DNA from: Dulcicalothrix desertica PCC 7102
Lineage (GTDB): Bacteria > Cyanobacteriota > Cyanobacteriia > Cyanobacteriales > Nostocaceae
Length of the DNA: 64,000 nucleotides
Assembly (NCBI RefSeq): GCF_003991905.1
Contig: NZ_RSCL01000016.1
Span: 124,001-188,000 of the forward strand
Direction: 5' to 3'
The notes below the pieces were generated by a model. That model was not told where the DNA came from. It was given only the letters and a program-made list of their open reading frames with translations, and made no database searches. Numbering within the stretch: position 1 is the first letter of the stretch; each line of letters starts with the position of its first letter. This document shows, one piece after another, positions 488 through 17,501 of the stretch. Made by a program: the position numbers and the translations under genes.

Positions 488-745
488 ATGAATATTAATG
501 TGCAAATTGAGCGGTTAATTTTAGATGGAGTATCTGTTCCTCATGCCCAGCGACCTTTGTTACAGACAGCAGTGGAGGTGGAATTAGGGCGCCTTTTGGC
601 TGTTGGTGGGTTAGCCCCCAATTTAGTAGAAGGTGGCGCCGTGCCTCGTGTTAATGCTGATAGTATGGAAATTGCTGATACTAGTAATTACACGGAGATG
701 GGGCAGCAGATAGCCCGTGCTGTATATCGGGGGATGGGGTCATGA
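488..745 (+). CDS. Small conserved CIS-cluster protein (85 aa)
   Basis: Short acidic protein preceded by a GGAG ribosome-binding site at about 478-481. Its stop codon overlaps the start of the next gene (ATGA, 742-745), indicating translational coupling to the first DUF4157 cargo gene. The N-terminal half (pattern VQIERLxLDGxxV, then LLQTAVEVELGRLL) is helical and resembles the small unnamed proteins commonly placed just before DUF4157 genes in injection-system loci. A loading or chaperone role for the following cargo is plausible but is inference from gene order. Confidence 0.6.
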   Translation: MNINVQIERLILDGVSVPHAQRPLLQTAVEVELGRLLAVGGLAPNLVEGGAVPRVNADSMEIADTSNYTEMGQQIARAVYRGMGS

Positions 746-2322
746 GCAAGCAGACGGTAGCGCAGCATACACCGACAACATCACCGCTTTCTCAGGGTGG
801 GATTTTGCAGAGGAAATGCGAGACGTGCAGGCAGCATACGATCGCGGGTGGTCAGTGTAACGACTGTCAAAAAAAGCGCCTTCAACGCCGTGCCACCCAT
901 CAGGAAGCACTCTCTGAAGTTCCGCCGATTGTCCATGAAGTCCTTCAGGCATCTGGGCAACCTCTCGATCTTGCAACTCGAACTTTTATGGAATCCCGCT
1001 TTAGTCAAGACTTTAGCGGAGTGCGTTTACAGACTCAGCCAGCATCGATCGCTCAAACAAGTCTAGCAATCGGTTCTGCCCATAATGCTTCTGAAAGCGA
1101 AGCAGATCGTACTGCTGAACGAATTGTGCAATCTTCTGTATTTTCTAACAAGAGTCCCTTCACAGACCCTGGCTATGACTTCAGCCAAGTACTGGTGTAT
1201 ACCGACGATCAAGCGGACAAATCAGCACGGGCATTGAATGCGTTAGCTTACACAGTTGATCGCAACATTGTGTTTAGACGGGGACAGTATCAACCGAGTA
1301 CCGCTACAGGAAAACAACTGCTAGCTCATGAACTAACCCATGTAGTTCAGCAGCGTCAAGGAACACGAAGTCCCTCACAGTACAATCGTGTTTCCGTAAT
1401 TCAACGCAAAGAACAGCCCGCGCGCCCATTAAACCAGTTTACTGAACCATTGACTGATGCAGAATGGCAACTTGTAGAGATGTGGCAAAGTTATGGAGAA
1501 GTTGGTATTGATTCGTTGACTGAAGACCCTGCTCACAATGCATTGATGGTTGCTGATGCGATCTTTTGCAGTCGAGCGCTTTCCTCACTCATTTTAGACA
1601 GTCCCAGAGAAGACCCGCTTCTATGCGTGATCTCGGAGGTTACAAGAGCTGACCCCCGTGTGCAGCAACTTGTGCAACATGTAACCGCAAGAGGTCCAAT
1701 CATCAACTGGGCTAGTGTCGATCCGGATCAAAGGATGCGACATGTCATGGCGCTTCTCGTAAATACCTATCATTTCCCGGAAAACGGTGCAGCAGGTTTA
1801 GTTGGGAATCTGTGGTCGGAGTCGGGTGTACTTCCAAGCCGGATTGAGGGGAGCCATATAAATATGCCAATGACAGCTCCAAACTTTGCTGGACGATCAA
1901 CCGACTTTACCGCAGAACAAGTGATGAATCGTGATCATGCGGCGCGACAAGGACCACGGCTTCCTGGAATAGGTCTTGCCCAATGGACTTCTCCTAATCG
2001 GCGTGAGCGGCTCTTTCAACATACCTTTCAAGGACGACAACAGGGTGCGGCTATCCTCTTCAACATGGATGCTCAAGTCGATTATTTGGTCACCGAACTC
2101 CAATCTACCTACGCTGGTGTCTATAACGTTTTAACGAGAGCTGGTGTCTCGTTGAACGATGCGAGTGATGAAGTTGTTTACCGCTTTGAGGTTCCAGGGG
2201 CTGTTTTAGATGGTGCGGGGAACCTCCTGCCACGCAACAATCCAGCGGTTCAGGCAGTGTTTACGCGACGGAGAAGCAACTCCCAGCGAGCTTTGCGGGT
2301 TTTTAGCGCTGCTCAACCCTAG
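742..2322 (+). CDS. DUF4157 cargo protein with C-terminal phage-tail-type lysozyme domain
   Basis: 526 aa. The N-terminus has a CxxC...CxxC segment (residues 26-42) followed by DUF4157 sequence, with the zincin motif HELTH at residues 196-200. Residues ~325-500 resemble the phage tail lysozyme family (PF18013 type): NLWSESGV with probable catalytic Glu360, and GIGLAQW at 409-415. That family cleaves peptidoglycan. DUF4157 proteins are known to associate with extracellular-type CIS and act as cargo or toxin carriers. The DUF4157 module is rearranged: the ESEAD segment (118-122) that normally follows HExxH comes before it, and DFSxV segments occur twice (residues ~90 and ~146). It is coupled to the gene before it. 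Confidence 0.8.
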   Translation: MSKQTVAQHTPTTSPLSQGGILQRKCETCRQHTIAGGQCNDCQKKRLQRRATHQEALSEVPPIVHEVLQASGQPLDLATRTFMESRFSQDFSGVRLQTQPASIAQTSLAIGSAHNASESEADRTAERIVQSSVFSNKSPFTDPGYDFSQVLVYTDDQADKSARALNALAYTVDRNIVFRRGQYQPSTATGKQLLAHELTHVVQQRQGTRSPSQYNRVSVIQRKEQPARPLNQFTEPLTDAEWQLVEMWQSYGEVGIDSLTEDPAHNALMVADAIFCSRALSSLILDSPREDPLLCVISEVTRADPRVQQLVQHVTARGPIINWASVDPDQRMRHVMALLVNTYHFPENGAAGLVGNLWSESGVLPSRIEGSHINMPMTAPNFAGRSTDFTAEQVMNRDHAARQGPRLPGIGLAQWTSPNRRERLFQHTFQGRQQGAAILFNMDAQVDYLVTELQSTYAGVYNVLTRAGVSLNDASDEVVYRFEVPGAVLDGAGNLLPRNNPAVQAVFTRRRSNSQRALRVFSAAQP

Positions 2323-2383: not shown

Positions 2384-4069
2384 ATGATGCAAACACTCAC
2401 CCAAACCCAAGCCGAAAAAGCTTCCTTAACCTCTGTTAATAAAGGACTGTTACAACGGCGTTCTGTTGATAGGGATGAAGTTGCTGAAGTACCGCCAATT
2501 GTGCATAAAGTGCTTTCCTCCCCCGGTCAATCTCTAGACTCTGAAAGCCGTACCTTCATGGAATCTCGCTTTGGTCAAGATTTTAGTTCGGTGCGAGTTC
2601 ATACAAATGATCAAGCCGCAGAATCTGCTCAAGCTATTAATGCACTAGCTTACACGGTTGGGCAAAATGTAGTTTTTAACACAGGACAGTACGCTCCGAA
2701 AACTTTTGTAGGGCAGCAAATTTTGGCACATGAGTTAACTCATGTTTCACAGCAACAGCATATTACACAAGGCGCCTCGACAGCAAAATTGCACCTTGCC
2801 CAGTCTGATAGCTCCCAAGAAGCGGAGGCAAATCGGATGGCTGATGCAGTGACAGGGCAAACGCATGAGTCACTTCGCGAAATTTCAAGCGATGTATCAG
2901 AAGCTGTTATTCAAAGACTTTCACTTGCGGAGGGAATTGGAGTTGGCTTAGGGGTAGCAGCTGGAGTAGTGGGTTTAGGGTTACTTGCCTATTTTTTAGG
3001 ACGAGAGCGTCCAAGAATTCACTTAGAAACCAATGCTGCTAACATTCAACTAATTCGAGACCCAGCAAGTACCACCCCAGAAATAGTTGGTACACTCCCC
3101 CAAGGAACGCGGGTTGTAATTACCGATGACGGCAGAAATCGTCCATTTAATTCCCACAACGAGCAATGGGTCAAGGTTCGTGTCACTGTTGGAACATTTC
3201 TGAATCAAGAAGGTTGGCTACATCGCAATCAATTAGTAGAGCGTCCGGAAACCGAAGAAATTTCACCCGAAGCGGCGCTGCAAATCTTTCAAGCTCTTGC
3301 CCAGGCTAACATTCTAACAAACGATGGTTCAGCCCCTATACCGTTCCATTATCCACCCGATGGCTGCTATGCCCGTGCCCACCGTATGGAAGAGTTGTTA
3401 ACAGAAATGGGGTATGCTTCCGAAAAAGTATTTGCTCTAGCTGGTTCGCTACCCCTACGAGCAGAAACTGATTATGGACAGGATTCACCACCAAGTCAAA
3501 CTCCTGGTGTAACTTGGGCTTGGCATGTGGCGCCAATTATTAAAGTTCGTGACCCGCAAAGAGGACTGTTAGAAACTGTACTTGATCCATCGCTGGCAGA
3601 ACGACCCCTGTTATTGGATGAATGGTTGGATACGATGGAAGCCGACCCAGATACAGAAAACACAACCTTTACTCGACTGACACTAGGAGAAGTACGAGAG
3701 CAAATGCAGACCGGACAGTTAGGACGTAACCGTCGAGTTGCTGTTACGGCTCCTCGCTATACCTATAATCCCGATAGTTTGCTGGATACCGACCCTACCC
3801 GTGAAGAAGCACAAAGCAGCGATCGCTCGTTTCGACCAAGAATTACTCGATATGTCCAATTGGCGCCTGTGTTTGAACTTGCCCGATTGATTCGCATAGA
3901 GTTGCGCCGTGCTGTAATTAACTTGATGGTCATCTTAACTGCTATACGCAACGCCACTCGTTTTGTGCGACAACAATTTACAACACTCTTTGCTCGCTTG
4001 CTCGAACAGCTGCGACAACGGCTTACTCCCCCTGAGCGTCAACAAGTTGATGCAGCATTAGATGAATGA
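2384..4069 (+). CDS. DUF4157 cargo protein with SH3-like and protein-glutaminase (deamidase) domains
   Basis: 561 aa from the ATG at 2384; the open frame extends further upstream, but only through the end of the previous gene in another frame. DUF4157 lies at residues ~35-160, with HELTH at 117-121 and the downstream EAEAN ligand segment at 146-150. A Gly-rich hydrophobic stretch (181-205) is followed by an SH3b-like segment (~212-285). The C-terminal domain matches the protein-glutaminase fold: DGCYARAHRM with Cys328, WAWHVAP with His381, and VLDPSL with Asp401, which would form the Cys-His-Asp triad. Such enzymes deamidate glutamine side chains in proteins. I infer a toxin or effector carried by the CIS. 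The target is unknown. Confidence 0.8.
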   Translation: MMQTLTQTQAEKASLTSVNKGLLQRRSVDRDEVAEVPPIVHKVLSSPGQSLDSESRTFMESRFGQDFSSVRVHTNDQAAESAQAINALAYTVGQNVVFNTGQYAPKTFVGQQILAHELTHVSQQQHITQGASTAKLHLAQSDSSQEAEANRMADAVTGQTHESLREISSDVSEAVIQRLSLAEGIGVGLGVAAGVVGLGLLAYFLGRERPRIHLETNAANIQLIRDPASTTPEIVGTLPQGTRVVITDDGRNRPFNSHNEQWVKVRVTVGTFLNQEGWLHRNQLVERPETEEISPEAALQIFQALAQANILTNDGSAPIPFHYPPDGCYARAHRMEELLTEMGYASEKVFALAGSLPLRAETDYGQDSPPSQTPGVTWAWHVAPIIKVRDPQRGLLETVLDPSLAERPLLLDEWLDTMEADPDTENTTFTRLTLGEVREQMQTGQLGRNRRVAVTAPRYTYNPDSLLDTDPTREEAQSSDRSFRPRITRYVQLAPVFELARLIRIELRRAVINLMVILTAIRNATRFVRQQFTTLFARLLEQLRQRLTPPERQQVDAALDE

Positions 4070-4116: not shown

Positions 4117-5526
4117 ATGACTGAGCGCACGCTAGTCCAAACCACCTTAAATCCTGATATCTCTGTTTCTACAGGATTACTCCAATGCAAATCTGCTAAC
4201 TGCGGGCAGCGTAGCCTGAAAATATCAAATCATACCGATTGTCAAAAAAGACAATTGAATCTCCAGCGCCGTGCAACTAGTCGGGATAAACCTTCACAAG
4301 TTCCGCAAATTGTCCATGAAGTGTTGCAATCGCCCGGTCAGCCTCTCGATGCTAATACTCGTGTTGAGATGGAATCCCATTTTAACCGCGACTTTAGCCA
4401 GGTACGGGTACATACAGACGCAAAGGCAGCAGAGTCAGCAACAGCGGTAAATGCATTAGCTTACACTGTAGGACAAGATATTATGTTTAGGAGCCAACAA
4501 TATGCACCAGAGAGCAACTCAGGACAGCAACTGTTGGCTCACGAACTAGTGCATGTGTTGCAGCAAGAGGATAGTAACACCGTCAGCAATTTGGAGTTAG
4601 CCATCTCTGATAATGCCTCGTTAGAAGCAGAAGCAGACCAAGCAAGCCAAGCGATTGCAGGAGGTCAGCAGATACAACTCTCTTTAGCTTCGGCAGCAAC
4701 AGCTATCCAGCGACAAATTGCAGATTCTCGTAGGGAAGAGATAATCCGACTGGGTGAATCTGAAGACCCAGCAAATCGCCAACGTGCATTGGAGCTAATA
4801 ATAGAAACTTATTATGAACGACCAGATACACTCGCTAGAATTGAATACGATCCGGATTTTAATTATGAGAGTCCCCAGGACGCAGAAACGGGTTTTGCAC
4901 CTCTACGGCAGCCTCAAACGATCAAGATTGGTTCTCGCTTTTTTAACCGCTTCCGCGAACGCTTTGACCAAAGGGCACGCACTATCGGACACGAACTGCA
5001 ACATGTCGTGCAGCGGGCGCCTGTAAGCCAACAACAGAGTGGTGGAAGAACTGTAGGTAGTACTTTACTTGGCATTGGGGTAGGAATTCTTGGAGGCGCA
5101 GCACTTGGAGGAATTGGTCTTGGCGTTGCAGCGGCGGCAGGTGCAAGCCTTAGCCCCCTTGCCATAGGGCTAGGATTAGCTGGTGGTGCTGTCTTAGGTG
5201 GTGTCATTGGCGGGATTGCAGACCCTTTTAGTTCCAGAACAACCGAACAAAGTCAGGAACCTATCCAGAATTCACATACACGCGAATTTTTAGCTCTCTA
5301 TTGGACGGTGACAGCTAACGTGTCTGGCTTGCGCCCGCTAAGTCGAGGTCAAACCCTTCAAAATATTAGACAACCCAATGTCGGTGCATTGGATGAGTAT
5401 CGCCAAATGCCACCGGATGACCAAAGACGCTATCGAGAGCAATACGAGCATATTCAAAGGATTTTACGAGAACTGGAAAACGAGGAACGTGTCCGTAAAG
5501 GAGATACTAGAGCCAAAACAGAATAA
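4117..5526 (+). CDS. DUF4157 cargo protein with second HExxH domain and Gly-rich hydrophobic segment
   Basis: 469 aa. The N-terminal DUF4157 module has HELVH (142-146) and EAEAD (170-174). A second zincin-like motif, HELQH, lies at 292-296, and the REFLALYW segment (Glu389) could supply the third metal ligand. Between them residues ~314-367 form a long Gly/Ala-rich hydrophobic segment that could insert into a membrane. The protein ends in a charged helical tail. It is the third cargo gene in a row; a 269-bp gap separates it from the tube and baseplate genes. A metallopeptidase or pore-forming role is inferred, not shown. Confidence 0.72.
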   Translation: MTERTLVQTTLNPDISVSTGLLQCKSANCGQRSLKISNHTDCQKRQLNLQRRATSRDKPSQVPQIVHEVLQSPGQPLDANTRVEMESHFNRDFSQVRVHTDAKAAESATAVNALAYTVGQDIMFRSQQYAPESNSGQQLLAHELVHVLQQEDSNTVSNLELAISDNASLEAEADQASQAIAGGQQIQLSLASAATAIQRQIADSRREEIIRLGESEDPANRQRALELIIETYYERPDTLARIEYDPDFNYESPQDAETGFAPLRQPQTIKIGSRFFNRFRERFDQRARTIGHELQHVVQRAPVSQQQSGGRTVGSTLLGIGVGILGGAALGGIGLGVAAAAGASLSPLAIGLGLAGGAVLGGVIGGIADPFSSRTTEQSQEPIQNSHTREFLALYWTVTANVSGLRPLSRGQTLQNIRQPNVGALDEYRQMPPDDQRRYREQYEHIQRILRELENEERVRKGDTRAKTE

Positions 5527-5795: not shown

Positions 5796-6455
5796 ATGAC
5801 TACCTTCCCAGGTTCACCCAGGCTACTTAAAGGTGGCATTGTCTTAATTAACCCCAATACTGCTGTAGTGCAACGCATTATCGTAATGCAATATAACCCC
5901 GACACCCTTAGTCGCACATTACAAGTGCAGGGAGTAGGGAATGAAAGTGGTGACCGCCAAGAAGCGCTACGGTTGAAAGGACCCCCAATTGAGACAATTA
6001 AGCTGGATGCAGAAATTGATGCAACTGACCAGCTAGAATTCCCCGACCAAAATTCCACCACGGCTGAATCTGGTATTTTCCCCCAACTAGCAGCCTTGGA
6101 AATGATTATTTATCCTGATAGCAATCAGATTCAAAATAACCATCGTCAGGCACGTTCGGGAATTCTAGAAGTGTCCCCAATAGAAACTTTCCTTAGTCTG
6201 TTCGTCTGGAGTCAGAATCGTATTTTACCTGTACGATTAACAGAATTCAGTATTACAGAGGAAGCTTTTGATACTTCTCTTAATCCAATTCGCGCTAAGG
6301 TGAGTTTAGGAATGCGGGTGTTAAACTCTAATGACTTAGGGTTTAACCACAAAGGCAGCAATTTATTTATGGTGTATCACCGTCAAAAAGAACAATTTGT
6401 TACACGCGCGCGTGCGGGCACATTTAGTTCTTTAGGAATTAAAGGTATTCCATGA
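5796..6455 (+). CDS. CIS tube-cap protein (Afp7 N-terminal-domain type)
   Basis: 219 aa. The N-terminus (LLKGGIVLINP... VMQYNPDTLSRTLQ) matches the N-terminal domain of injection-system tube-initiation proteins (Afp7/gp53-like). These sit between the inner tube and the spike hub and often carry a LysM domain; here the LysM part is encoded by the next gene. The 4-nt ATGA overlap with that gene suggests equimolar production. It starts at ATG 5796 after a 269-bp gap and heads the structural operon visible in this window. Confidence 0.82.
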   Translation: MTTFPGSPRLLKGGIVLINPNTAVVQRIIVMQYNPDTLSRTLQVQGVGNESGDRQEALRLKGPPIETIKLDAEIDATDQLEFPDQNSTTAESGIFPQLAALEMIIYPDSNQIQNNHRQARSGILEVSPIETFLSLFVWSQNRILPVRLTEFSITEEAFDTSLNPIRAKVSLGMRVLNSNDLGFNHKGSNLFMVYHRQKEQFVTRARAGTFSSLGIKGIP

Positions 6456-6826
6456 TGGACACAATGCAAGCTATGGCAATGCAGAATTTATTGCAACCAG
6501 ATGCTTTAAAAACCAATCTTTTTCCAATTACAAGCCGTTATTACGGTTTAAATACAGCCACCCTGAAAACGGGTACTGACAAAACTATTGTTTATCTGAG
6601 ACGACGGTTTATACCACCTCCAGAGCAGTTTTCTTTATTACAAGAACATACAGTGACGGAGGGCGAACGCTTAGATAATATCACAGCCCAATATCTGGGC
6701 GACCCTGAACAGTTCTGGCGAGTTGCTGATGCAAATAATGCCATGAATCCTAATGAACTAACTCAAACTATAAATCGTAAATTACGAATTACCATGCCAG
6801 CAGGTTTATCTGGCCCAATGTTATGA
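6452..6826 (+). CDS. LysM-domain baseplate protein
   Basis: 124 aa. Residues ~65-115 form a LysM-like motif (HTVTEGERLDNIAxQYLGD..FWRVADANN-like pattern). In contractile tails LysM proteins of this size (gpX/gp53-like) bind the tube-hub junction rather than peptidoglycan. The gene overlaps both neighbours by 4 nt (ATGA at each end), so it is translated with the tube-cap and hub proteins. The start at 6452 is fixed by the overlap. Confidence 0.85.
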   Translation: MMDTMQAMAMQNLLQPDALKTNLFPITSRYYGLNTATLKTGTDKTIVYLRRRFIPPPEQFSLLQEHTVTEGERLDNITAQYLGDPEQFWRVADANNAMNPNELTQTINRKLRITMPAGLSGPML

Positions 6827-7950
6827 ACCGTGGTTTATATCTATCGATTCGCATGGGGTCTTTATTCAACCCCTCACCAGTATCTCAAGCTGTGATTGAA
6901 GCCATAACTGAAATACAGGTGACAAATAGCGTTGGTAGTCAAAGCGGTTTTCAAATGAAATTTACTCTGGGAAAACAATCACCCTTTAACAATTTATTGC
7001 AATCAGGGTATTTTGACCCTAGAACTAGAGTAATTATCATTGCGACAGTGCATGGTACACCCCAAGTGTTGATGGATGGCATTATTACTAAACAAGATGT
7101 CACCCCCAGCAACCAACCAGGACAATCAACCCTTACAGTTACAGGGTTGGATTTAAGTGCCATCATGGATTTTATTGACCTGACGGACATTCCCTATCCA
7201 GCAATGCCATTATTTACGATTGTGGCTCTAATTTTGGCAAAATATGCTGTTTTTGGTGTAGCTCCTCTGGTGATTCCCACTAGTATTATTGCTATTCAAA
7301 ATCCTCTGGAGAGATTCCGCAAACAACAAGGTACTGACTTTAATTACATCAATGCTTTAGGACAAGCTAGTGGTCACATTTTTTACTTAGAACCTGGACC
7401 CGAACCGGGAATGAGTATTGCTTATTGGGGACCAGAATACAGTAAATTTACTACTCCTCAGCCAGCATTGAGTATTAATATGGATGCTGATGACAACGTG
7501 GAATCCTTGAGCTTTTCCTACGATGGTTTAGCAGCTAGGCAGTACTTGGCCATCATTCTGGAACAAAACAGCCGTATACCAATTCCAGTACCAATTCCTG
7601 AAATCAGTATTTTGAAGTCGCCTCTAGCACAACAAACACCCCCAAATTTGAAAAGTGCCAGGTTGGAAGATATTGCTAGGAATGGTTTAGGAGAAGCTGC
7701 GCTGAAAATTTTAGGTGCATTGATGGCAACACCCGATGCTATTAGCAGTAGTGGTCAGTTAGACGTGTTGCGTTACGGACGTATTTTGAAAGCTAGACAA
7801 TTGGTGTCTGTGCGGGGAGGAAGTAATTATTATGACGGTTTATACCAAGTCAAAAGTGTTACTCATAATATCAAGCGAGGTGAATACAAACAAAGCTTTT
7901 CCTTAGTGCGAGGTGGTGTGAAATCATCTATTGAGCGGGTGAGTGTATGA
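6823..7950 (+). CDS. Spike hub protein (phage late control gpD/VgrG N-terminal type)
   Basis: 375 aa. Family features are an N-terminal beta-barrel, the conserved GTDFNYINALGQASGH region around residue 165-180, and a C-terminal segment (YDGLYQVKSVTHNIKRGEY) typical of gpD/VgrG hub domains. It would form the trimeric hub that connects the tube to the spike. Afp8-type proteins fuse hub and spike; here the spike (gpV-like) is a separate downstream gene with a 4-nt overlap. Start at ATG 6823 overlaps the LysM gene. Confidence 0.85.
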   Translation: MNRGLYLSIRMGSLFNPSPVSQAVIEAITEIQVTNSVGSQSGFQMKFTLGKQSPFNNLLQSGYFDPRTRVIIIATVHGTPQVLMDGIITKQDVTPSNQPGQSTLTVTGLDLSAIMDFIDLTDIPYPAMPLFTIVALILAKYAVFGVAPLVIPTSIIAIQNPLERFRKQQGTDFNYINALGQASGHIFYLEPGPEPGMSIAYWGPEYSKFTTPQPALSINMDADDNVESLSFSYDGLAARQYLAIILEQNSRIPIPVPIPEISILKSPLAQQTPPNLKSARLEDIARNGLGEAALKILGALMATPDAISSSGQLDVLRYGRILKARQLVSVRGGSNYYDGLYQVKSVTHNIKRGEYKQSFSLVRGGVKSSIERVSV

Positions 7951-8480
7951 CAGATAGTGGTAGAAAATTTTACGGCAAATTCCAAGGAACTGTAGTCAAT
8001 AATATTGACCCCTTGAAGCAGGGACGATTACAGGTACTAGTTCCAGATGTGGGCAGTCTTTCCCCCTCCACCTGGGCAAAGCCTTGTGTTCCCCTTGGTG
8101 GTTTGCAAATGGGGATGTATTTAATACCCCCGATACAAGCAGGTGTGTGGGTGGAGTTTGAAAATGGCGACCCTGATTATCCTATTTGGGTTGGTTATTG
8201 GTGGGGTTCTGCCGCAGAAATACCAGCGATTGCGAATTTAAGTACTCCTGGTATGCCTGTAATTATCATGCAAACTCCTACTCAACAAGCCTTGGTAATT
8301 AGTGATGTGCCAATACCCCCAATGTTAGCACCAGGAATTATGCTAATGAGCGGCGCCTCGTCTATCACTATCGATGCTACAGGTGTGACAATTACGGCGC
8401 CAAAGGTGACAATTAATGGCGCCGCGATTAACCTCACTGGAGTCACCAACATTAATAGCGGTGCTTTGATAGTTACTTAG
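7947..8480 (+). CDS. Baseplate assembly protein V-like spike
   Basis: 177 aa. An N-terminal OB-fold segment (GRLQVLVPDVG... WVEFENGDPDYPIWVGYWWG) is typical of phage gpV/VgrG spike proteins. The C-terminus has repeated short beta strands (SITIDATGVTITAPKVTING) expected for a trimeric beta-helix needle. It would form the puncturing spike below the hub and carry the PAAR-like tip encoded next. It overlaps the hub gene by 4 nt. Confidence 0.87.
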   Translation: MTDSGRKFYGKFQGTVVNNIDPLKQGRLQVLVPDVGSLSPSTWAKPCVPLGGLQMGMYLIPPIQAGVWVEFENGDPDYPIWVGYWWGSAAEIPAIANLSTPGMPVIIMQTPTQQALVISDVPIPPMLAPGIMLMSGASSITIDATGVTITAPKVTINGAAINLTGVTNINSGALIVT

Positions 8481-8498
8481 AGGAGATTTAACTAATAC

Positions 8499-8822
8499 AT
8501 GCCAGGTTTTATACTACATCTCGGTGCAAGTGTTTTATGTAGTCATGGGGGACAGGCACAACCTACAGTTGTTAGCCCTAGAGTCACCGTAAACGGTCAA
8601 CCAATTGTCACTCAACCTAACCCCTATACGGTAGTCGGTTGTGCTTTACCCCCACCTCCTAATGGTAATGGTCCTTGTGTTACTGCCCAGTGGGTGACTG
8701 CTTCTATTCGAGTGACTTCGATGGGAATGCCTGTTTTGTTATTAGATAGCCAAGCAGTCTGTCTTCCCACTGGTACACCTTTAATTATTGGTGCTACGCA
8801 AACAAGGGTAAATGCAATATGA
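8499..8822 (+). CDS. PAAR-like spike tip protein
   Basis: 107 aa, rich in Gly, Pro, Val and Thr, with Cys12, His15 and a Cys-containing loop (GPCVTAQW) that could bind a metal as PAAR tips do. Length and position right after the gpV-like spike gene and before gp25 fit an Afp10/PAAR (or DUF4280-like) tip. It starts 18 nt after the spike gene, with AGAGGAG at about 8480-8486 as ribosome-binding site. It overlaps the gp25-like gene by 4 nt. Confidence 0.8.
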   Translation: MPGFILHLGASVLCSHGGQAQPTVVSPRVTVNGQPIVTQPNPYTVVGCALPPPPNGNGPCVTAQWVTASIRVTSMGMPVLLLDSQAVCLPTGTPLIIGATQTRVNAI

Positions 8823-9178
8823 ACATAGATTTTCCCTTCCACTTTGATAATCTCGGTCGAACAGCAACTACCGACTCGGACGACCATATCCGAAACATGA
8901 TTAAGCTGTTATTATTTACCAATCCTGGGGAAAGGGTAAACCGTCCCGATTTTGGTAGCGGTTTGCTGCAATTAGTTTTTGCTCCTAATAGTGCGGAGTT
9001 AGCTGCAACTTTACAATTTACTATGCAAGCAGCATTGCAACAGTGGTTGGGTGATTTGATTGATGTGCAAGGGTTGGAAGTTATTAGTGAGGATTCTCGC
9101 TTGCAGGTATTTTTAGAATATGTAGTCAAACGCACTGGGGAACAGCGTACAGAAATATTTGCCAGGAGCGGTGTATGA
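8819..9178 (+). CDS. gp25/gpW-like baseplate wedge protein
   Basis: 119 aa. Matches the GPW/gp25 family: N-terminal DFPFHFDNLGRTATT, then MIKLLLFTNPGERVNRPDFGSGL, the family's EPR-like core (here NPGERVNRPDFG). gp25 proteins start sheath polymerisation at the baseplate (Afp9 in the Serratia system). The gene overlaps both neighbours by 4 nt. Confidence 0.9.
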   Translation: MNIDFPFHFDNLGRTATTDSDDHIRNMIKLLLFTNPGERVNRPDFGSGLLQLVFAPNSAELAATLQFTMQAALQQWLGDLIDVQGLEVISEDSRLQVFLEYVVKRTGEQRTEIFARSGV

Positions 9179-11781
9179 TGAACAATTCTTTGTACAGACG
9201 CGATATGTATAGACGCGATAAATCGCGTCTCTACAGTTGTACAAACGAACAACGGCGCCACGAAGTCCGCAAACGAAACCTGAACGGATTGGATTATTTA
9301 GAAGTTAGCGATGACCAATTTTATCTGTATGTATATTTCATTGGCGCCTTACCAGAAAATATTACCAAGGAGAATATCCGAATTGAAGGTGGTCAGCGCA
9401 TCCGAGATATCCAAGTAATTGATGTCGAGTTAGAACATCAGAAAGACCCGACTTTAGATAGTTATTTGCGAGTGCGGGTTGATAAGTATGGCGATTTTTC
9501 TACCTATACTCTGCGCTTAATTGGGTTGGAAGGGATTGACCCCCATTATTCTTACCTAAATTTCAGTTTTAAAGTTAATTGTCCCAGTGACTTAGATTGT
9601 AAATCAGCACATATTTGTCCTGGGAAAGAACGGACTGAACCGGAGATTAATTATTTAGCCAAAGATTATGCCAGTTTCCGCCAATTAATTTTAGACCGTT
9701 TGGCGTTAATTATGCCCAATTGGCAATCACGGCATGTTCCCGACTTGGGTATTACTTTAGTGGAACTTTTAGCTTATGTTGGAGACTATCTCAGCTACTA
9801 CCAAGATGCTGTTGCTACCGAAGCATATTTAGATACCGCTCGTCAACGTATCTCAGTGCGGCGCCATGTGCGATTAGTTGACTACCCGATGCATGAGGGT
9901 TGTAATGCCAGAACTTGGGTTTGGTTAGAAACAAAAATTGATACTAGCATAAATCTCAAAGACATATATTTTATTACTACTTATCAGGATTTACCTGTTT
10001 CAAACCCAGTTTTAAAAATAGATGACCTGAGAAATATTGACAGTAAAAAGTACGAAGTTTTTGAGCCTATTGTTAAAGAGTCACAAGCGAATATCGAATT
10101 ATATAAAAAACATAACGAAATTCATTTCTATACATGGGGTAATCGCGAATGTTGTTTACCTAAGGGTGCAACTAGCGCAACTCTATTAGATGAATGGATT
10201 TCCTCTACTAATACTCCTACTAAACAAGATAAATGTGATGATGATGCTCCCAAACCTCCTAATTTAGAACGGAAGTTACAATTGAAACCTGGCGATATTC
10301 TCATTTTTACAGAGGTAAAAGGCGCCAAAACCGGAAACCAAGCAGATGCTGATATTAACCATCGTCATGCAGTTAGACTAATTAGCGTTAAACATGGTGT
10401 AGATGAAGTCTATAGAGTAAACGTAAATAATGTTACTCAAGACATGCCCACTCCTATTGTAGAAATTACTTGGGCAACAGCAGATGCATTGCCTTTTCCT
10501 CTGTGTATTTCAGCGATTGGGTTGGCGCCAGAATGCCAATTAATCGAGAATATTAGCGTAGCGCGCGGTAATGTCATCCTTGTAGACCACGGACGCACAG
10601 TAACAGAGAATTTGGGTGTAGTAGCTGCAAAAACAGAAATAATGCCCTGTGAGGGGGAAAATCAACCCGCAGATGTAACAGCAGTAGCTGCTTCTTTTTA
10701 CCCCTCTCTCAAATATGCACCTTTAACCTTTCGCCAACCGCTTTCCAAGCAAGACCTACATCAGGCGCCTGCCACTAGTTTACTCACACAAAAACCTAGA
10801 AAAGCTCTACCACAAATTACCAAATTAATCAGTAATTACCCATCATGGTCTTGGACTCCTCAACTAGATTTATTAGGAAGTAATAGTCAAGACAAGCATT
10901 TTGTTGTGGAAGTGGACAATGAAGGTTATGCTCATTTGCGTTTTGGCAATGGAGAACTCGGACAAATGCCAGTAGCTGGAAGTAATTTCTCTGCAATATA
11001 CCGCATTGGTAATGGTATAGCTGGAAACATCGGTGCAGATACCATTGCCCATATCGTATTTCGTCAGAATGCAATCACTGGTATAACTCCCCATAACCCT
11101 TTACCAGCAAAAGGAGGTACACAACCCGAACCGTTATCAGAAGTAAAATTATTTGCACCCAGTACCTTCCGTAAGGAGTTGCAAAGGGCAATAACAGCAC
11201 AGGATTATGCGGATATAGTTATGCGCGATTTTTCAGATACAGTGCAAAGAGCAGCTGCAACCTTACGCTGGACAGGTAGTTGGGATAAGGTGTTGGTAGT
11301 AGTTGACCCTTTAGGAGAAGAAACCAATAACAATGAATTATTAGCTGCTATTTCTCAACATTTATATCGTTACCGTCGTATTGGTCATGATGTGGTAGTA
11401 AAACAAGCTATTTACGTTCCTTTGGATATTGAGATGACTGTATGTGTTCAGCCAGACTTTTTGCGAGGACATGTGAAAGCAGCATTGTTGAACTTATTTA
11501 GCAATAGGATTTTACCAGATGGGCGCCGTGGTTTTTTCCATCCAGATAATCTGACTTTTGGTACAGGTATAGCTTTGAGTAAATTAGTTGCGACAGCGCA
11601 AACAGTAACAGGTGTAGAAAATGTAGTAGTAACAAAACTGCAACGTTTATATGAACTCGATAATGGAGAACTCGACAATGGTATTTTACCTCTAAGTTCT
11701 ATGGAAATCGCGCGGTTAGATAATGACCCAAATTTTCCAGAAAATGGTCAATTTAAATTAAGCCTACATGGTGGAAGATAA
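9175..11781 (+). CDS. Large baseplate protein, gpJ/Afp11-like (first copy)
   Basis: 868 aa. Conserved elements include NYLAKDYASFRQLILDRLAL and ELLAYVGDYLSYYQDAVATE near residues 160-220, and LRFGNGELGQMP near 590, all typical of 'putative baseplate assembly proteins' of injection systems (Afp11, phage gpJ wedge). It forms the baseplate wedge frame. It overlaps the gp25-like gene by 4 nt. The first ~25 codons are made from a dispersed inverted repeat (YRRDMYRRDKSRLYS), so the native N-terminus may begin near NEQRRHEVRKR at about 9244. Confidence 0.88.
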   Translation: MMNNSLYRRDMYRRDKSRLYSCTNEQRRHEVRKRNLNGLDYLEVSDDQFYLYVYFIGALPENITKENIRIEGGQRIRDIQVIDVELEHQKDPTLDSYLRVRVDKYGDFSTYTLRLIGLEGIDPHYSYLNFSFKVNCPSDLDCKSAHICPGKERTEPEINYLAKDYASFRQLILDRLALIMPNWQSRHVPDLGITLVELLAYVGDYLSYYQDAVATEAYLDTARQRISVRRHVRLVDYPMHEGCNARTWVWLETKIDTSINLKDIYFITTYQDLPVSNPVLKIDDLRNIDSKKYEVFEPIVKESQANIELYKKHNEIHFYTWGNRECCLPKGATSATLLDEWISSTNTPTKQDKCDDDAPKPPNLERKLQLKPGDILIFTEVKGAKTGNQADADINHRHAVRLISVKHGVDEVYRVNVNNVTQDMPTPIVEITWATADALPFPLCISAIGLAPECQLIENISVARGNVILVDHGRTVTENLGVVAAKTEIMPCEGENQPADVTAVAASFYPSLKYAPLTFRQPLSKQDLHQAPATSLLTQKPRKALPQITKLISNYPSWSWTPQLDLLGSNSQDKHFVVEVDNEGYAHLRFGNGELGQMPVAGSNFSAIYRIGNGIAGNIGADTIAHIVFRQNAITGITPHNPLPAKGGTQPEPLSEVKLFAPSTFRKELQRAITAQDYADIVMRDFSDTVQRAAATLRWTGSWDKVLVVVDPLGEETNNNELLAAISQHLYRYRRIGHDVVVKQAIYVPLDIEMTVCVQPDFLRGHVKAALLNLFSNRILPDGRRGFFHPDNLTFGTGIALSKLVATAQTVTGVENVVVTKLQRLYELDNGELDNGILPLSSMEIARLDNDPNFPENGQFKLSLHGGR
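9191..9240. repeat. GACGCGAT inverted repeat inside the first gpJ-like gene
   Basis: TGTACAGACGCGAT and a second ATAGACGCGATAAATCGCGTCTCTACA palindrome lie within codons ~6-23 of the gpJ-like gene. The core is the same as the three intergenic copies. The tract is translated in frame. Confidence 0.8.
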
Positions 11782-11789
11782 GACTTTGT

Positions 11790-11847
11790 AAGGGCGGGTT
11801 AACGATATATTAAATACAGCTTTAGGATATTTATAAACCCGCCCTTT
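11790..11847. repeat. AAGGGCGGGTT...AACCCGCCCTT inverted repeat in the CIS operon
   Basis: Arms AAGGGCGGGTT (11790-11800) and AAACCCGCCCTTT (11835-11847) with a ~35-bp AT-rich loop between the two gpJ-like genes. No T-tract follows, so it may be an mRNA-stability hairpin rather than a terminator. Confidence 0.75.
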
Positions 11848-11885
11848 AGACAATATAAAATCCAAAATAACGGGAGGACTAGGAC

Positions 11886-14800
11886 ATGATGAATGAAAAT
11901 TGTGGATGTTGCGAAGGAGTCGAAGCAATCACTCCGATTTCCACTGTCAACCGTCCTGGTTTAAATGCTTTAATGTATCGAGTTGGTACCCACAGCACCT
12001 TTCTCGAAACTATGAAAGCTGGTGTTTCTAATAGTAAATATCCTGCTCTTGCTAAGTTGAAAACTCGAAATGCTAATGATTCATCTATTGCTTTTCTAGA
12101 TGCTTGGGCAACGGTAGCGGATGTTTTAACCTTTTATCAAGAACGTATAGCTAATGAGGGTTATTTACGGACAGCAACAGAAAGACGTTCTGTATTGGAG
12201 TTAGCAAGGTTAGTTGGTTATAGTTTGCGTCCTGGTGTCGCTGCTACAGTCTATCCTGCTTTTACAATGGAAATAGGATATAACAAAGATACGCAAATAC
12301 CCGTAGGTACGAGAATTCAAAGTCTACCAGCTTCGGGGGAAATGCCGCAATTTTTTGAAATAGCGGAAACTATCGAAGGTCGTACTGAGTGGAATAATTT
12401 GCAACCAAGATTAACACGACCTCATTATATTGAACTGTCGAATGCTAAAGATATAGATAAACTTTACTTTCAGGGTATTACAACTAATCTTAAACCGAAT
12501 GACCCACTATTATTTATATTTTCTAATATTCAGGGGATGCAAATTTTTCGTCATGTGAAAAAAGTGGAACCCCAAGCTATAGAAAATCGTACTAAAGTAG
12601 AGTTACAAACAGAGCCAGAAACTATAACAACCGATGATAAAATAAATCTATCTTCTTCTAATCCAAGCAGAGAAAAACAACAATGTCCCTTTGATAAACT
12701 AGGTACAGCAGATGAAGGTTTATTAAATAATCTACTTAAACCTGCTTCGATTCCACCTGCTAACGCTTCAAGGTTGGGTTTATCTTTGAAAGATACTTAT
12801 AAATGTGAGTCAGATATTGCACCACAATTATTAAAAACTCTTAAACCTCAACTAAAAGATACATTATATACTGCTTGGCAAAATACTCCTGTTACAAATA
12901 AATCATCTTTACAAAGTACCCAAGCATTACGGGTAAAAGCAGCACCTTTTGGCGCCAATTCTCCCTTGAAACCAGTTTATGATGAACGGGGGAGAATTTT
13001 AGGTTATGAAGAGTGGGCAATTGCACCAATTATAAAGCTGGCAATTAATGTCTTGATTAACAACAGCGATAATGTTTTTGCACTTGCTACTGTCTCTGTA
13101 CAACAAAAAACAGGAAATCAGAGTCTCTTCATAAATCGACAAGCGATGATAAGAGGGGAGCAAATCAACGCACCTGGGTTAAGTGTTGTGCCAACTTTAT
13201 TAACAGATGGTAGTGAAGAATTCCCACAAGATGTAGGAGTAAGATTACAAATTATTACACCAGTAGAACATACCGTTACGATTACTCAGCAAGAAGTTGG
13301 TTGGGGTGTGCAAATAGCAACAGACCCACAACACATTATTACATCAGGGCAAACATTGAGATACACAAGCGACGATGGACGCAAAATTACTATTTCAAAT
13401 ACCAGAGGTATAAGAGAGAATGAGCAAGTCTCTGTTTCAGAAGAATTAACTATTCCTCTATCGGATACTGAAAAACGTATTTTGCCCCTTGATGCTCAAT
13501 ATGACCAAATCCTACCGAGGAGTTGGGTCGTTATTCAGCGTCCTAATAGCCAAATTATTACCCAAGTCGAGAAAATAGAAACTATCACTAAAGCTGACTA
13601 TGGTATTTCAGCTAAAGTTACACAATTAACTTTACAAGACCGATGGTTAGAGGATAATGACTTAACTTTAGATGTAATTCGTCAAACCACGGTCTATGCT
13701 CAAAGTGAAGAATTAAAACTTGCATTCGAGGTTATCAACCCTATAGAAGAACCCGTTAAAGGAAGCGAAGTTGAACTTAGCCAACTTTATGAAGGATTAC
13801 AACCAGGAAGATGGTTAATTGTATCTGGAGAACGCGCTGACCTTGGGGAAACTACGGGTGTTAAAGCGAGTGAGTTAGTCATGCTGTTGGGAGTTAAGCA
13901 ACGCGCGGTAACTAAGTTTAAAGATATTGAACAAGAAAGACCGGGAGATATAACCCATACTTTTATACAATTAAAAAATTCCCTTAGTTACGAATACAAA
14001 CGGGATACCGTCACCATCTACGGTAATGTCGTTAAAGCTACTCATGGTGAAACCCGCACGGAAGCGTTAGGAAGTGGTGATGGTAGCAAAGCGTTCCAAG
14101 AATTTTCTCTGCGACAATCACCTCTTACTTATGTTGCTGCTCCTATACCTGCTGGCGCCAAAAGTACTTTAGAAGTGCGTGTCAATGACATTCTCTGGCA
14201 CGAAAAAGATAGCCTTGCAGGACTTAAGCCAACGGAACGCGCGTACATTACTAAAACTGGTGATGACAGTAAAACTACGGTTATATTTGGTAACGGAGAA
14301 AACGGCGCCCGTTTACCTACAGGTGTAGAAAATATCAGAGCAGTGTACCGTAGTGGTATCGGTAAAGTTGGTAATGTCAAAGCAGAGCAAATTAGTTTGC
14401 TAGCATCACGACCTTTGGGACTAAGAAGTGTTATTAACCCCCTACCTGCTACCGGAGGCGCCGACCGGGAAAGTCGTGACCAAGCGCGTAAAAATGCACC
14501 TTTAGCAGTAATGGCTTTAGACCGTTTGGTATCTGTACAAGACTATGCAGACTTTGCCCGCACTTTTGCTGGTATCGCTAAAGCAGGCGCCATGCTGTTA
14601 TCGGATGGTCGTCGCAGGTTAGTTCACCTGACTATTGCTGGGGTAGATGACATACCAATCGATAAACAATCAGATTTATATCGTAATTTGTATCAAGCGC
14701 TACGTCTATATGGCGCCTCTGACCAGCCAATACAGCTGGAACTCAGAGAACTAATGGTAATTATCATTAGCGCTAAAGTCAAAATTTTACCCGATTATCA

Positions 14801-15194
14801 ATGGGAGGCAGTAGAACCACAAATAAGACAAACATTACTAGATACCTTTAGTTTTGAACAGCGAGAACTAGGACAAGATATTACGTTAAGTGAAGTAATT
14901 AGCACAATTCAAAAAGTTGCAGGAGTTGACTTTGTTGATTTAGATATTTTGGATACTGTATCTGAAACAGAAGCAGCAAATCCAAATATACTAACACAAA
15001 TATTTCAAGCTTTAGCCCAAGGAAAAGTTTACCCCAGAGAAAACAATAGAGAAAACAATAATTCATCAACAGAAACCCAACCGCGAAAGAGGATTACTGT
15101 TAATCTAGCTAGGGTGAAGCAAAAAATCCAACCAGCCCAAATTGCAATATTAACTCCTTCTCAACCTCTAACTCTAATTCTTAACCCGCTGTAA
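11886..15194 (+). CDS. Large baseplate protein, Afp11-like (second copy)
   Basis: 1102 aa. Same superfamily as the preceding gene but longer. It has an early SSIAFLDAWATVADVLTFYQ core (~residues 60-80) followed by ERIANEGYLRTATERRS, an FGNGENGARLPTG segment (~residue 800) and a C-terminal wedge domain (SVQDYADFARTFAGIAKA). Baseplates of this class often use two gpJ-like proteins to build asymmetric wedges. A GGGAGG ribosome-binding site (11871-11876) precedes the ATG. The 104-bp gap upstream contains a hairpin repeat. The tail after ~residue 1030 is Asn/Thr-rich and low in complexity. Confidence 0.87.
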   Translation: MMNENCGCCEGVEAITPISTVNRPGLNALMYRVGTHSTFLETMKAGVSNSKYPALAKLKTRNANDSSIAFLDAWATVADVLTFYQERIANEGYLRTATERRSVLELARLVGYSLRPGVAATVYPAFTMEIGYNKDTQIPVGTRIQSLPASGEMPQFFEIAETIEGRTEWNNLQPRLTRPHYIELSNAKDIDKLYFQGITTNLKPNDPLLFIFSNIQGMQIFRHVKKVEPQAIENRTKVELQTEPETITTDDKINLSSSNPSREKQQCPFDKLGTADEGLLNNLLKPASIPPANASRLGLSLKDTYKCESDIAPQLLKTLKPQLKDTLYTAWQNTPVTNKSSLQSTQALRVKAAPFGANSPLKPVYDERGRILGYEEWAIAPIIKLAINVLINNSDNVFALATVSVQQKTGNQSLFINRQAMIRGEQINAPGLSVVPTLLTDGSEEFPQDVGVRLQIITPVEHTVTITQQEVGWGVQIATDPQHIITSGQTLRYTSDDGRKITISNTRGIRENEQVSVSEELTIPLSDTEKRILPLDAQYDQILPRSWVVIQRPNSQIITQVEKIETITKADYGISAKVTQLTLQDRWLEDNDLTLDVIRQTTVYAQSEELKLAFEVINPIEEPVKGSEVELSQLYEGLQPGRWLIVSGERADLGETTGVKASELVMLLGVKQRAVTKFKDIEQERPGDITHTFIQLKNSLSYEYKRDTVTIYGNVVKATHGETRTEALGSGDGSKAFQEFSLRQSPLTYVAAPIPAGAKSTLEVRVNDILWHEKDSLAGLKPTERAYITKTGDDSKTTVIFGNGENGARLPTGVENIRAVYRSGIGKVGNVKAEQISLLASRPLGLRSVINPLPATGGADRESRDQARKNAPLAVMALDRLVSVQDYADFARTFAGIAKAGAMLLSDGRRRLVHLTIAGVDDIPIDKQSDLYRNLYQALRLYGASDQPIQLELRELMVIIISAKVKILPDYQWEAVEPQIRQTLLDTFSFEQRELGQDITLSEVISTIQKVAGVDFVDLDILDTVSETEAANPNILTQIFQALAQGKVYPRENNRENNNSSTETQPRKRITVNLARVKQKIQPAQIAILTPSQPLTLILNPL

Positions 15195-15218
15195 TTATTT
15201 ATTTAATTCTTTTTACTT

Positions 15219-17444
15219 ATGAACACTATAGAAGACTACTTATACAACCTTTTACCCGTAATATACCGTCAAAGCGATGCAGAAAAAGACTATGCTCTAC
15301 GAGACTTATTACGGATAATCTCCGAACAAGTCAATATAGTAGAGTCAGACATTTCTCAACTTTATGAAAACTGGTTTATTGAAACCTGCCAAGATTGGGT
15401 TGTTCCCTATATTGGTGATTTAATTGCTTATAAACCAGTCCACGAAGCTGGTGAACCGGGAGATATAAACACCCCTCAAGGACAACAACGCAATAAAATA
15501 TTAATTCCGCGACGAGAACTTGCTAATACCATTCGTAATCGACGACGTAAAGGAACTCTCACATTATTAGAATTACTTGCAAATGATGTTGCTGGCTGGT
15601 ACGCGCGGGCAGTTGAATTTTACAAGCTATTGGGTTGGACACAGCACCTTAATCATTTACAACTTGGGCAAGGTAGAAGGGTAGATTTACGTCAAAGTGA
15701 TATTTTGGAAAGGTTAAATAGTCCCTTTAATGAAATTGCCCATACTGTAGATATACGTCGTATTCAATCGCCCTACGACCCAGGACGCTATAATATTCCA
15801 CATGTGGGAGTTTTTATCTGGCGCCTAAAAACCTATTCCGTCACCAGAACACCTGCTTACTGTTTAGAAGAAGTTAGACCAAATTGCTACACGTTCAGCG
15901 TTTTAGGCAATGATACACCACTTTATAATCTTCCTCAACCTGAAACAGAACCAACCCACATCGCTCTTGAAATAAATTTACCCGTTCCCTTGCGTCGTCG
16001 TGTTCTGGAAATAGATAAACAAAGATATGAAAAAACAGGTGAAAGTCTTTACTATGGAGAAAACAAGAGCTTTCAAATTTTTTTAGGAACTCCAGCAGGA
16101 ACCTCCTTTACCTGGCGCCCAATTCCTTACGATAAAATTATTCCTGAAGACCTGAGTGAATGGCAATATCAACCCCCTCAAGATATGGTAGCAGTTGACC
16201 CGGTTTTAGGGAGAATTGTCTTTCCTTCTCGTCAGTTACCGAAAGCAGGAGTTTGGGTTTCTTATCAATATGCTTTTAGTGCAGATATTGGCGGTGGTGA
16301 GTATAACAGGATACTATTACAACCAATTATTTATACACTTTACCGAGTAGGAAAACAGGAAGAATTCACTCGTATCAACGACGCTTTCGACCGCTGGCAG
16401 TCAGATTATCAAACCAATCCTGACGAAGCAAAATATCGTCAAGCAGTGATTGAAATTACCGATAGTAGCGTTTACACTGAGTGCTTTAATTTGTGTCTCC
16501 AAGCTAATCAAACCTTACAAATTCGCGCGGCAAACTACAAACGTCCAATAATTCGCTTACTAGACTATCAAGCTGAAACTACTGATTCCTTACTTGTTAC
16601 TCTACAATCAGGAAGTCGCTTCAGTTTAGATGGTTTATTAATCGTTGGTCGAGGGGTGCGAATTCAGCGAGAAATGCCTGATTTCCTCGTATCTACTACC
16701 CCTACATACACAGAGATACTGAGTCCAGTCAAAGTTACTATCCGCCATTCGACTCTTGTTCCTGGTTGGTCGCTACAATGTGATTGCGAACCCAAACGTC
16801 CTGCTGAACCAAGTTTAGAATTATATAACCTGAAGGGACAAGTAGAAATTACCCACAGCATTATCGGTTCCATTCAAGTGCATCAAGATGAGGTACAAAC
16901 TGACCCCATCACTATTCACATCAGTGACAGTATTGTTGATGCGACTCACACCGAGCAGGAAGCAATAGATGCACCCGGATGTGCTGTAGCTCATGCAAAA
17001 CTATCAATTTATCGCAGTACTGTATTTGGCAAAATCCTGACTCATAGTATTAAATTCGCAGAAAATTCTATCTTTAACGGTTGCATTACTGTCGCGCGTC
17101 GTCAGTCCGGGTGTATGCGCTTTTGTTATGTTACCCCTGGTTCTCGCACACCCCAACGCTATAACTGTCAACCAGATTTAGTTCAACAAGCAGTAAGTGA
17201 AGATTTAAAGCAAGTGGAAAGTGAGCGCGTCCGTCCTCAGTTCAAAAGTACTCGCTACAGTACTCCCACTTATTGTCAGCTTGCTAACACCTGCCCTGAA
17301 GAAATTAAACGTGGTGCTGATGATGAATCAGAAATGGGTGTTTTTCATCACCTCTATCAACCTCAAAGAGAGGCAAATTTACGCGCACGTTTAGATGAAT
17401 ATACTCCATCTGATATGGAAACAGGAATTATTTATGCTAATTGA
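15219..17444 (+). CDS. Tail protein I-like baseplate protein (Afp12 type)
   Basis: 741 aa. The N-terminus (YLYNLLPVIYRQSDAEKDYALRDLL, then WVVPYIGDLIAYKP and RRKGTLTLLELLANDVAGW) matches large tail protein I/Afp12-like proteins in CIS loci. The C-terminal ~300 residues look like a repetitive beta-rich domain with IHISDSIVDAT and RRQSGCMRFCYV patterns, perhaps an arm or adhesin-like extension. It starts 24 nt after the second gpJ-like gene. It is expected at the periphery of the baseplate. Confidence 0.8.
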   Translation: MNTIEDYLYNLLPVIYRQSDAEKDYALRDLLRIISEQVNIVESDISQLYENWFIETCQDWVVPYIGDLIAYKPVHEAGEPGDINTPQGQQRNKILIPRRELANTIRNRRRKGTLTLLELLANDVAGWYARAVEFYKLLGWTQHLNHLQLGQGRRVDLRQSDILERLNSPFNEIAHTVDIRRIQSPYDPGRYNIPHVGVFIWRLKTYSVTRTPAYCLEEVRPNCYTFSVLGNDTPLYNLPQPETEPTHIALEINLPVPLRRRVLEIDKQRYEKTGESLYYGENKSFQIFLGTPAGTSFTWRPIPYDKIIPEDLSEWQYQPPQDMVAVDPVLGRIVFPSRQLPKAGVWVSYQYAFSADIGGGEYNRILLQPIIYTLYRVGKQEEFTRINDAFDRWQSDYQTNPDEAKYRQAVIEITDSSVYTECFNLCLQANQTLQIRAANYKRPIIRLLDYQAETTDSLLVTLQSGSRFSLDGLLIVGRGVRIQREMPDFLVSTTPTYTEILSPVKVTIRHSTLVPGWSLQCDCEPKRPAEPSLELYNLKGQVEITHSIIGSIQVHQDEVQTDPITIHISDSIVDATHTEQEAIDAPGCAVAHAKLSIYRSTVFGKILTHSIKFAENSIFNGCITVARRQSGCMRFCYVTPGSRTPQRYNCQPDLVQQAVSEDLKQVESERVRPQFKSTRYSTPTYCQLANTCPEEIKRGADDESEMGVFHHLYQPQREANLRARLDEYTPSDMETGIIYAN

Positions 17445-17457
17445 ATAATTAAAATTT

Positions 17458-17486
17458 CAAAATCCAAAATCCAAAATCCAAAATCA
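17458..17486. repeat. CCAAAAT tandem repeat before the DUF6519 gene
   Basis: Four or so 7-bp units CCAAAAT in the 57-bp gap between the tail protein I-like and DUF6519 genes, a typical cyanobacterial heptanucleotide tandem repeat. Confidence 0.8.
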
Positions 17487-17501
17487 TATGAGGATAAATA
17501 T

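Follow-up and report, generated by a model that had tools for sequence, protein, structure and literature searches.

The window (the whole 64,000-nucleotide stretch of Dulcicalothrix desertica PCC 7102 that was analyzed, positions 124001-188000 of contig C16) carries three DUF4157 cargo genes, the middle one of which encodes a 561-residue protein with a protein-glutaminase domain and lies 47 bases from the next cargo gene (Table 1). An upstream ATG is also present at position 2210, and the start at 2384 matches the start region of the homologues. The eCIS_core domain is on the N-terminal side of the protein, the arrangement by which DUF4157 cargo is recognized. An earlier note on this DNA had read the gene as a protein-glutaminase-like deamidase fused to DUF4157, a hydrophobic segment and an SH3-like segment, and carried as CIS cargo. 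The open frame with its start and stop, the DUF4157 fusion and the hydrophobic segment were all recovered, and CIS genes flank the slot on both sides. The SH3-like segment stood in part, as PF08239 did match there, although weakly and below its cut-off. Cys328 was the sole cysteine among the 561 residues; the homologue of Calothrix sp. HK-06 has one cysteine and that of Richelia SL_2_1 has four, three of them near the N-terminus. The G+C content of the glutaminase cargo gene was 0.470, against 0.403 for the downstream CIS genes.

Table 1. Features of the glutaminase cargo gene and its surroundings (positions in the window; residues of the 561-aa protein).
Feature	Position	Strand	Residues	Basis or remark
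Conserved 85-aa gene directly 5' of the cargo slot	488..745	+		no Pfam match
First cargo gene, DUF4157 and phage tail lysozyme (PF18013)	742..2322	+		Pfam
Glutaminase cargo gene, 561 aa	2384..4069	+	1-561	DUF4157, hydrophobic stretch, SH3-like segment, protein-glutaminase domain, helical C-terminus
First hydrophobic-Gln-Arg motif, LQR	2450..2458	+	23-25	N-terminal of DUF4157
eCIS_core / DUF4157 domain	2534..2761	+	51-126	PF13699, 102.7 bits, E 1.2e-29
HExxH metallopeptidase motif HELTH, intact	2729..2743	+	116-120	inside DUF4157
Junction motif IQR, DUF4157-payload	2909..2917	+	176-178	candidate processing site
Hydrophobic Gly/Ala-rich segment	2933..3001	+	about 184-206	
SH3-like segment	3065..3226	+	228-281	PF08239, 19.6 bits, under cut-off 27
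Protein-glutaminase catalytic domain	3281..3637	+	300-418	PF18626; PDB 8z3i, 2zk9, 3a54
Cys328, predicted nucleophile	3365..3367	+	328	aligned to Cys42 of 2zk9
His381, predicted catalytic	3524..3526	+	381	aligned to His83 of 2zk9
Asp401, predicted catalytic	3584..3586	+	401	aligned to Asp103 of 2zk9
C-terminal region	3674..4066	+	431-561	last part helical, basic (helix from low-confidence model)
Third cargo gene, DUF4157, payload without a family above cut-off	4117..5526	+		Pfam
CIS structural genes downstream of the slot	5796..18950	+		Pfam

Upstream of the cargo slot are genes for the sheath, the tube, a T4-baseplate-like protein, a Pvc16_N protein and an AAA ATPase. The downstream set comprises a CIS_tube-like gene, 124-aa and 375-aa genes without a Pfam match, a base V spike, a PAAR/DUF4280-like gene, gp25, two baseplate J-like genes, a 741-aa gene without a Pfam match and DUF6519; the matches for CIS_tube, DUF4280 and the first baseplate J fell under their Pfam cut-offs. 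The best PDB match of the sheath was 8bky (1.6e-75), which is Cis2 of Streptomyces coelicolor (PMC11566945), and the sheath was also near 9ezm, deposited by the same study from Halogeometricum. Anabaena All3325 (7b5h) followed at 4.4e-42, eighth of the 17 PDB sequences listed, and an Anabaena-type tCIS was therefore rejected as the machine. Two additional sheath genes occur on other contigs of this genome (C3 and C19), neither of which had a DUF4157 match; the C3 sheath, the one compared, was likewise closest to the S. coelicolor sheath.

The 85-aa gene at the 5' side of the slot was recognizable in 11 of 20 fetched stretches and is possibly a cargo adaptor. In the third cargo protein, HELQH forms a second HExxH motif, and a long segment is rich in Gly and Ala. 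No immunity-like partner gene was found: ATG-started frames of at least 25 aa are absent at 5527-5800, 3' of the third cargo gene, and at 11768-12165 of the Richelia SL_2_1 stretch (L003), 3' of the homologous gene.

The family search that the earlier note had called for gave a highly significant result, with PF18626 matching the cargo protein at 82 bits (cut-off 25, E 4.4e-23, model positions 3-106 of 106). In a search of the whole 11.4 Mb genome, this cargo was the one copy of the family (85.6 bits). The NCBIfam equivalog NF040782, whose cut-off is 250 bits, gave 60.5 bits and covered the enzyme domain only (model 159-256 of 321), so that the domain is shared, while the cargo is not a member of the equivalog. 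The segments DGCYARAHRM, WAWHVAP and VLDPSL were all found, and the residue numbers given to the proposed triad, Cys328, His381 and Asp401, were exact. These residues were mapped through a phmmer alignment with PDB 2ksv/2zk9, and residues 42, 83 and 103 are given as the triad of 2zk9, the Chryseobacterium protein-glutaminase, in a figure legend (PMC3498931). In an alignment of the window protein with six others at 28-93% identity to it, the triad, Arg331-Ala332-His333, Trp378 and Trp414 were invariant in all seven, in agreement with the Cys-His-Asp triad proposed earlier.

All five PDB sequences matched by the single protein at E <= 1 (8z3i, 2ksv, 2zk9, 3a54 and 3a56) are named protein-glutaminase or protein-glutaminase domain, which excludes chance for the enzyme domain. 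The seven-protein profile matched five distinct protein-glutaminase sequences at about 1e-28; the other seven matches listed were two weak unrelated entries and five designed repeat proteins, the best at 5.6e-08 with no single stretch passing alone. No other enzyme family was found over the payload in Pfam at E 0.1, and the transglutaminase families PF20085, PF01841 and PF09017 gave no match to the cargo protein at the same threshold, in a scan where matches above about E 0.1 are mostly removed by the speed filters. When residues 204-561 were modeled in AlphaFold together with three close sequences, the mean pLDDT was 39.2, too low for use. Judged by its sequence, the enzyme domain of the cargo is a member of the protein-glutaminase family with an intact triad. 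Membership in PF18626 does not by itself settle the specificity, as the papain-like relatives include transglutaminases and proteases.

The enzyme region was also the most constrained part of the cargo. Between the window copy and that of Richelia SL_2_1, 137 of 147 residues of this region were identical, and dN/dS over residues 286-430 was 0.039. Values were higher elsewhere: the hydrophobic stretch gave 0.088, the C-terminal region 0.127, SH3 0.158, DUF4157 0.170, the linker 0.362 and the first 50 residues 0.53. For the same pair, eight structural CIS genes ranged from 0.033 (PAAR-like) to 0.133. The pair of window and HK-06 had too few changes for per-domain values (five in the enzyme region).

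Full or nearly full copies of the cargo were found in four of 217 genomes of the family (taken to be Nostocaceae, as Calothrix and Richelia belong to it), namely the genome of the window, Calothrix sp. HK-06 (the closest named relative, 98%), Richelia SL_2_1 and CSU_2_0, the last copy (L004) being broken on a contig of 1.3-fold coverage. A search of genome contigs yielded three loci from 51 candidate stretches. The family itself was rare, with PF18626 in one of 386 genomes sampled across the phylum and in four of 388 sampled across the order. Completeness is lower for two of the latter four, G675 (77%) and G799 (85%), both of which have DUF4157 domains on other contigs. G799, a distant cyanobacterium, encodes two glutaminase proteins without DUF4157 (L067 and L069), which align with that of the window over the final part of its SH3-like stretch and over the glutaminase domain, one at 39% and the other at 34% identity; the PF08239 SH3 match was present below cut-off in L069 and absent from L067. 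Because these two proteins share the SH3-glutaminase part without DUF4157, this part looks like a module joined to different N-termini, a reading that rests on two proteins.

Among mobile elements, no relatives of the glutaminase were found in viral contigs by protein or profile search. Two DNA patterns gave nine viral loci (three and six), where no frame of at least 80 aa matched the domain profile, and phages gave no match at E 0.01. The enzyme part matched four of 72,556 plasmid records, including one from Sinorhizobium and two from Streptomyces; the Sinorhizobium protein has PF18626 and lacks DUF4157. The whole cargo protein matched 91 plasmid records, none over 80% of its length among the best 40 of the 91.

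The cargo slot was compared across 20 stretches around the best DUF4157 matches, a choice that favors similar N-termini. The cargo lay between the AAA ATPase and a CIS_tube-like gene in 14 of them; three had one flank on the stretch, and no CIS flank was seen in three (L058, L061 and L062). Three of the 20 (L045, L046 and L047) duplicate the records of the HK-06, Richelia and CSU_2_0 stretches (L002, L003 and L004), and payloads were counted in the other 17. These held 41 DUF4157 frames, and the Pfam scan covered 40 of them, all except a piece of 144 aa. A further domain above cut-off was present in 11 of the 40: SLT (four), OmpA (two), and LysM, PG_binding_1, Ntox44, pretoxin HINT and the transglutaminase TGL (one each). 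PF18626 was absent from all 40. The 47 payload parts compared, which include those of the window, HK-06 and the three stretches without CIS flanks, formed 36 groups by blastp similarity (E 1e-5), of which 30 had a single member.

Genome G433 matches the window at 94-98% identity in its ATPase, tube-like and spike proteins and at 89% in the third cargo, but its slot has no glutaminase cargo and holds an 830-aa DUF4157 frame and two further frames; in the family survey this genome had DUF4157 matches only. These further frames, of 154 aa and 400 aa (stop to stop), follow the different cargo (L060:8982-10661) and are absent from the slot of the window; the 154-aa frame could be an immunity partner. 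In the Richelia slot the first cargo is a different one and the third is absent. To judge from these comparisons, the cargo slot is one that exchanges payloads rapidly. The first cargo of Calothrix HK-06 (L002:9439-9939) was a remnant of 166 aa, left after an in-frame internal deletion that takes out DUF4157 and part of the lysozyme domain. Another CIS slot, in genome G478, encodes a DUF4157 cargo with a transglutaminase domain (L052:3-1754; PF20085, 46.3 bits), the sole PF20085 match among the 217 Nostocaceae genomes.

Hydrophobic-Gln-Arg motifs were frequent around DUF4157. In 46 DUF4157 frames (L006, L046 and L048-L064), with expectations taken from shuffles, [VIL]QR occurred 85 times N-terminal of the domain (5.5 expected) and 28 times between 10 residues before the domain end and 150 after it (5.3 expected). 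The motif was present before the domain in 43 of the 46 frames, after it in 26 and further downstream in nine. In a stricter test with non-redundant windows and the 400 classes [VILM]XX, QR ranked first in the post-DUF4157 window (26 of 40 windows; 2.68 expected), and nine of the 26 junction matches lay 16 residues past the domain end. In the pre-DUF4157 window QR was fourth by ratio (26 of 35; 2.97 expected); this window contains homologous sequence, so that shared ancestry explains part of the enrichment there. Ten frames from plasmids of other phyla had QR after the domain in five (0.68 expected; rank second) and before it in six (0.76 expected; rank third).

The junction motif is a possible processing or loading signal, and proteins may be cut at it. 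Published statements bear on this in different ways. DUF4157 is described as a CIS cargo marker domain of unknown function, and the eCIS signal peptide is stated to show no specific conserved sequence (PMC11297309). Most such (PVC-metallopeptidase) domains were called releasing peptidases (PMC3482391), but growth inhibition by Cgo1 was independent of its metalloprotease motifs (PMC8894135), which argues against self-release. A far-reaching proposal is advanced with low confidence, namely that the DUF4157 peptidase would cut the flanking hydrophobic-Gln-Arg motifs in the tube or on leaving it and free a deamidating SH3-glutaminase, that most DUF4157 cargo would behave likewise, and that glutamine chemistry (glutaminase and transglutaminase) would be a recurrent cyanobacterial CIS weapon.

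Since a cargo ending in a glutaminase is encoded inside a CIS cluster, the machine probably delivers an enzyme that converts glutamine to glutamate. The family match, the triad, the fusion and the CIS setting together favor the modular DUF4157-glutaminase architecture first suggested in the earlier note, and they make it likely that the protein is a CIS payload, loaded and injected, with a glutaminase part that would deamidate glutamine in target proteins. In such a mechanism, the N-terminus and DUF4157 would load the protein into the tube, contraction would deliver it, and cleavage at the IQR junction, by DUF4157 or another protease, may free the payload. The SH3-glutaminase part would then form an acyl-enzyme by Cys-His-Asp chemistry and hydrolyze the side-chain amide of glutamine within proteins to glutamate and ammonia, which would disable or alter the target proteins. 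The targets may be rival bacteria, a grazer, or cells of the producer itself that undergo regulated death.

The last of these targets corresponds to a reading in which the cargo acts within the producer, in regulated lysis or ghost-cell formation, and not on another organism. This appears possible, if on the unlikely side. The sheath is closest to that of S. coelicolor, and a related Streptomyces system mediates cell death (PMC10066040); the Anabaena CIS lies on thylakoids and has a proposed ghost-cell role (PMC8894136), but the sheath in the window is not Anabaena-like. Peptidoglycan-related payloads made up eight of the 11 with a domain above cut-off (40 scanned), three of the eight being close relatives. 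In view of these payloads and of the sheath's kinship with the Streptomyces cell-death system, the enzyme may act on bacterial envelopes or on the cells of its producer. The fast exchange of payloads, however, fits competition at least equally well, and action within the producer bears on the target and not on the identity of the enzyme. Action of this particular payload on peptidoglycan or its cross-links, as an amidase or peptidase resembling its cell-wall-directed neighbors, is very unlikely. Cell wall binding is common among bacterial SH3 segments, the neighboring cargo carries a lysozyme, and SLT, LysM, OmpA and PG_binding_1 payloads occupy the slot elsewhere; yet the domain matches the protein-glutaminase family, and the NlpC/P60, CHAP and amidase families were unmatched in Pfam.

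As to the enzyme itself, the same Cys-His-Asp chemistry would serve a transglutaminase, in which a lysine amine resolves the acyl-enzyme, or a thiol protease, in which a peptide bond is cut. The families overlap within the papain-like superfamily (PMC10318531), a transglutaminase (PF20085) occurs in the CIS cargo L052 of the same cyanobacterial family, and the cargo EAT14 is transglutaminase-like, with protease activity not excluded by its authors (PMC11297309). No transglutaminase or peptidase family matched over the payload in Pfam at E 0.1, though, and the PDB lists were topped by protein-glutaminases and held no transglutaminase, so this assignment is unlikely. A decayed or inactive cargo is less credible still, to the point of being highly improbable: the L004 copy is interrupted and the neighboring HK-06 cargo has its large in-frame deletion, but the window copy is intact, keeps both the triad and HExxH, and shows the low enzyme-region dN/dS given above. 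The preferred reading is of an injected protein-glutaminase. CIS payloads with a readily assayable predicted activity are few. This one joins a CIS scaffold to an enzyme from a family well studied in food use and easily assayed, and its single cysteine is the predicted nucleophile, which makes activity, loading and release directly testable. The hydrophobic-Gln-Arg junction motif likewise offers a concrete handle on the role of DUF4157.

Compared with the Chryseobacterium protein-glutaminase (PF18626; 2zk9, 3a54), the cargo has the same enzyme domain, the same triad order and the same His-Asp spacing (20 in both), whereas the Cys-His spacing is 53, which is 12 more than the 41 of that enzyme. 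The Chryseobacterium enzyme is secreted and is made as a pre-pro-protein whose pro-sequence can be removed (PMC6132073), and the cargo is a DUF4157/SH3-like fusion encoded in a CIS operon. PF18626 proteins have also been placed near type IVb secretion genes (PMC10318531). By analogy, the nearest characterized relative in function is EAT14 of Chitinophaga rupis (Danov et al., 2024; PMC11297309), in which a DUF4157 cargo protein likewise ends in a Cys/His/Asp enzyme of the transglutaminase-deamidase type. EAT14 differs in having LysM and a transglutaminase-like domain, and its mutated residues (Cys298, Asp397 and His410) give the order Cys-Asp-His, in contrast to the Cys-His-Asp of the window cargo, which belongs to PF18626.

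Cgo1 and Cgo2 of AlgoCIS, DUF4157 proteins shown to fill the tube lumen, resemble the cargo in their predicted disordered N-terminus, central DUF4157 and variable C-terminal part; their payloads differ from that of the cargo, the C-terminus of Cgo1 being a putative metalloprotease (PMC8894135). The tCIS of Anabaena sp. PCC 7120 is likewise cyanobacterial and has two DUF4157 candidate effectors, Alr3311 and Alr3312 (PMC8894136), but the window sheath is nearer S. coelicolor Cis2 (8bky) than All3325 (7b5h). Among polymorphic toxins, DUF4157/PVC-metallopeptidase is combined with papain-like toxins (Zhang et al., 2012; PMC3482391), Tox-TGase being listed with PVC and cyanobacteria among its lineages; the word glutaminase is absent from the first 300,000 of the 357,715 characters of that paper. 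No description of a DUF4157-glutaminase cargo was found in the accessible main-text portions of the CIS/DUF4157 and protein-glutaminase toxin literature, in line with the earlier remark that no characterized cyanobacterial CIS cargo is known to have this activity. In that literature DUF4157 cargo with enzyme payloads is already known, and a protein-glutaminase payload on such a scaffold is apparently new.
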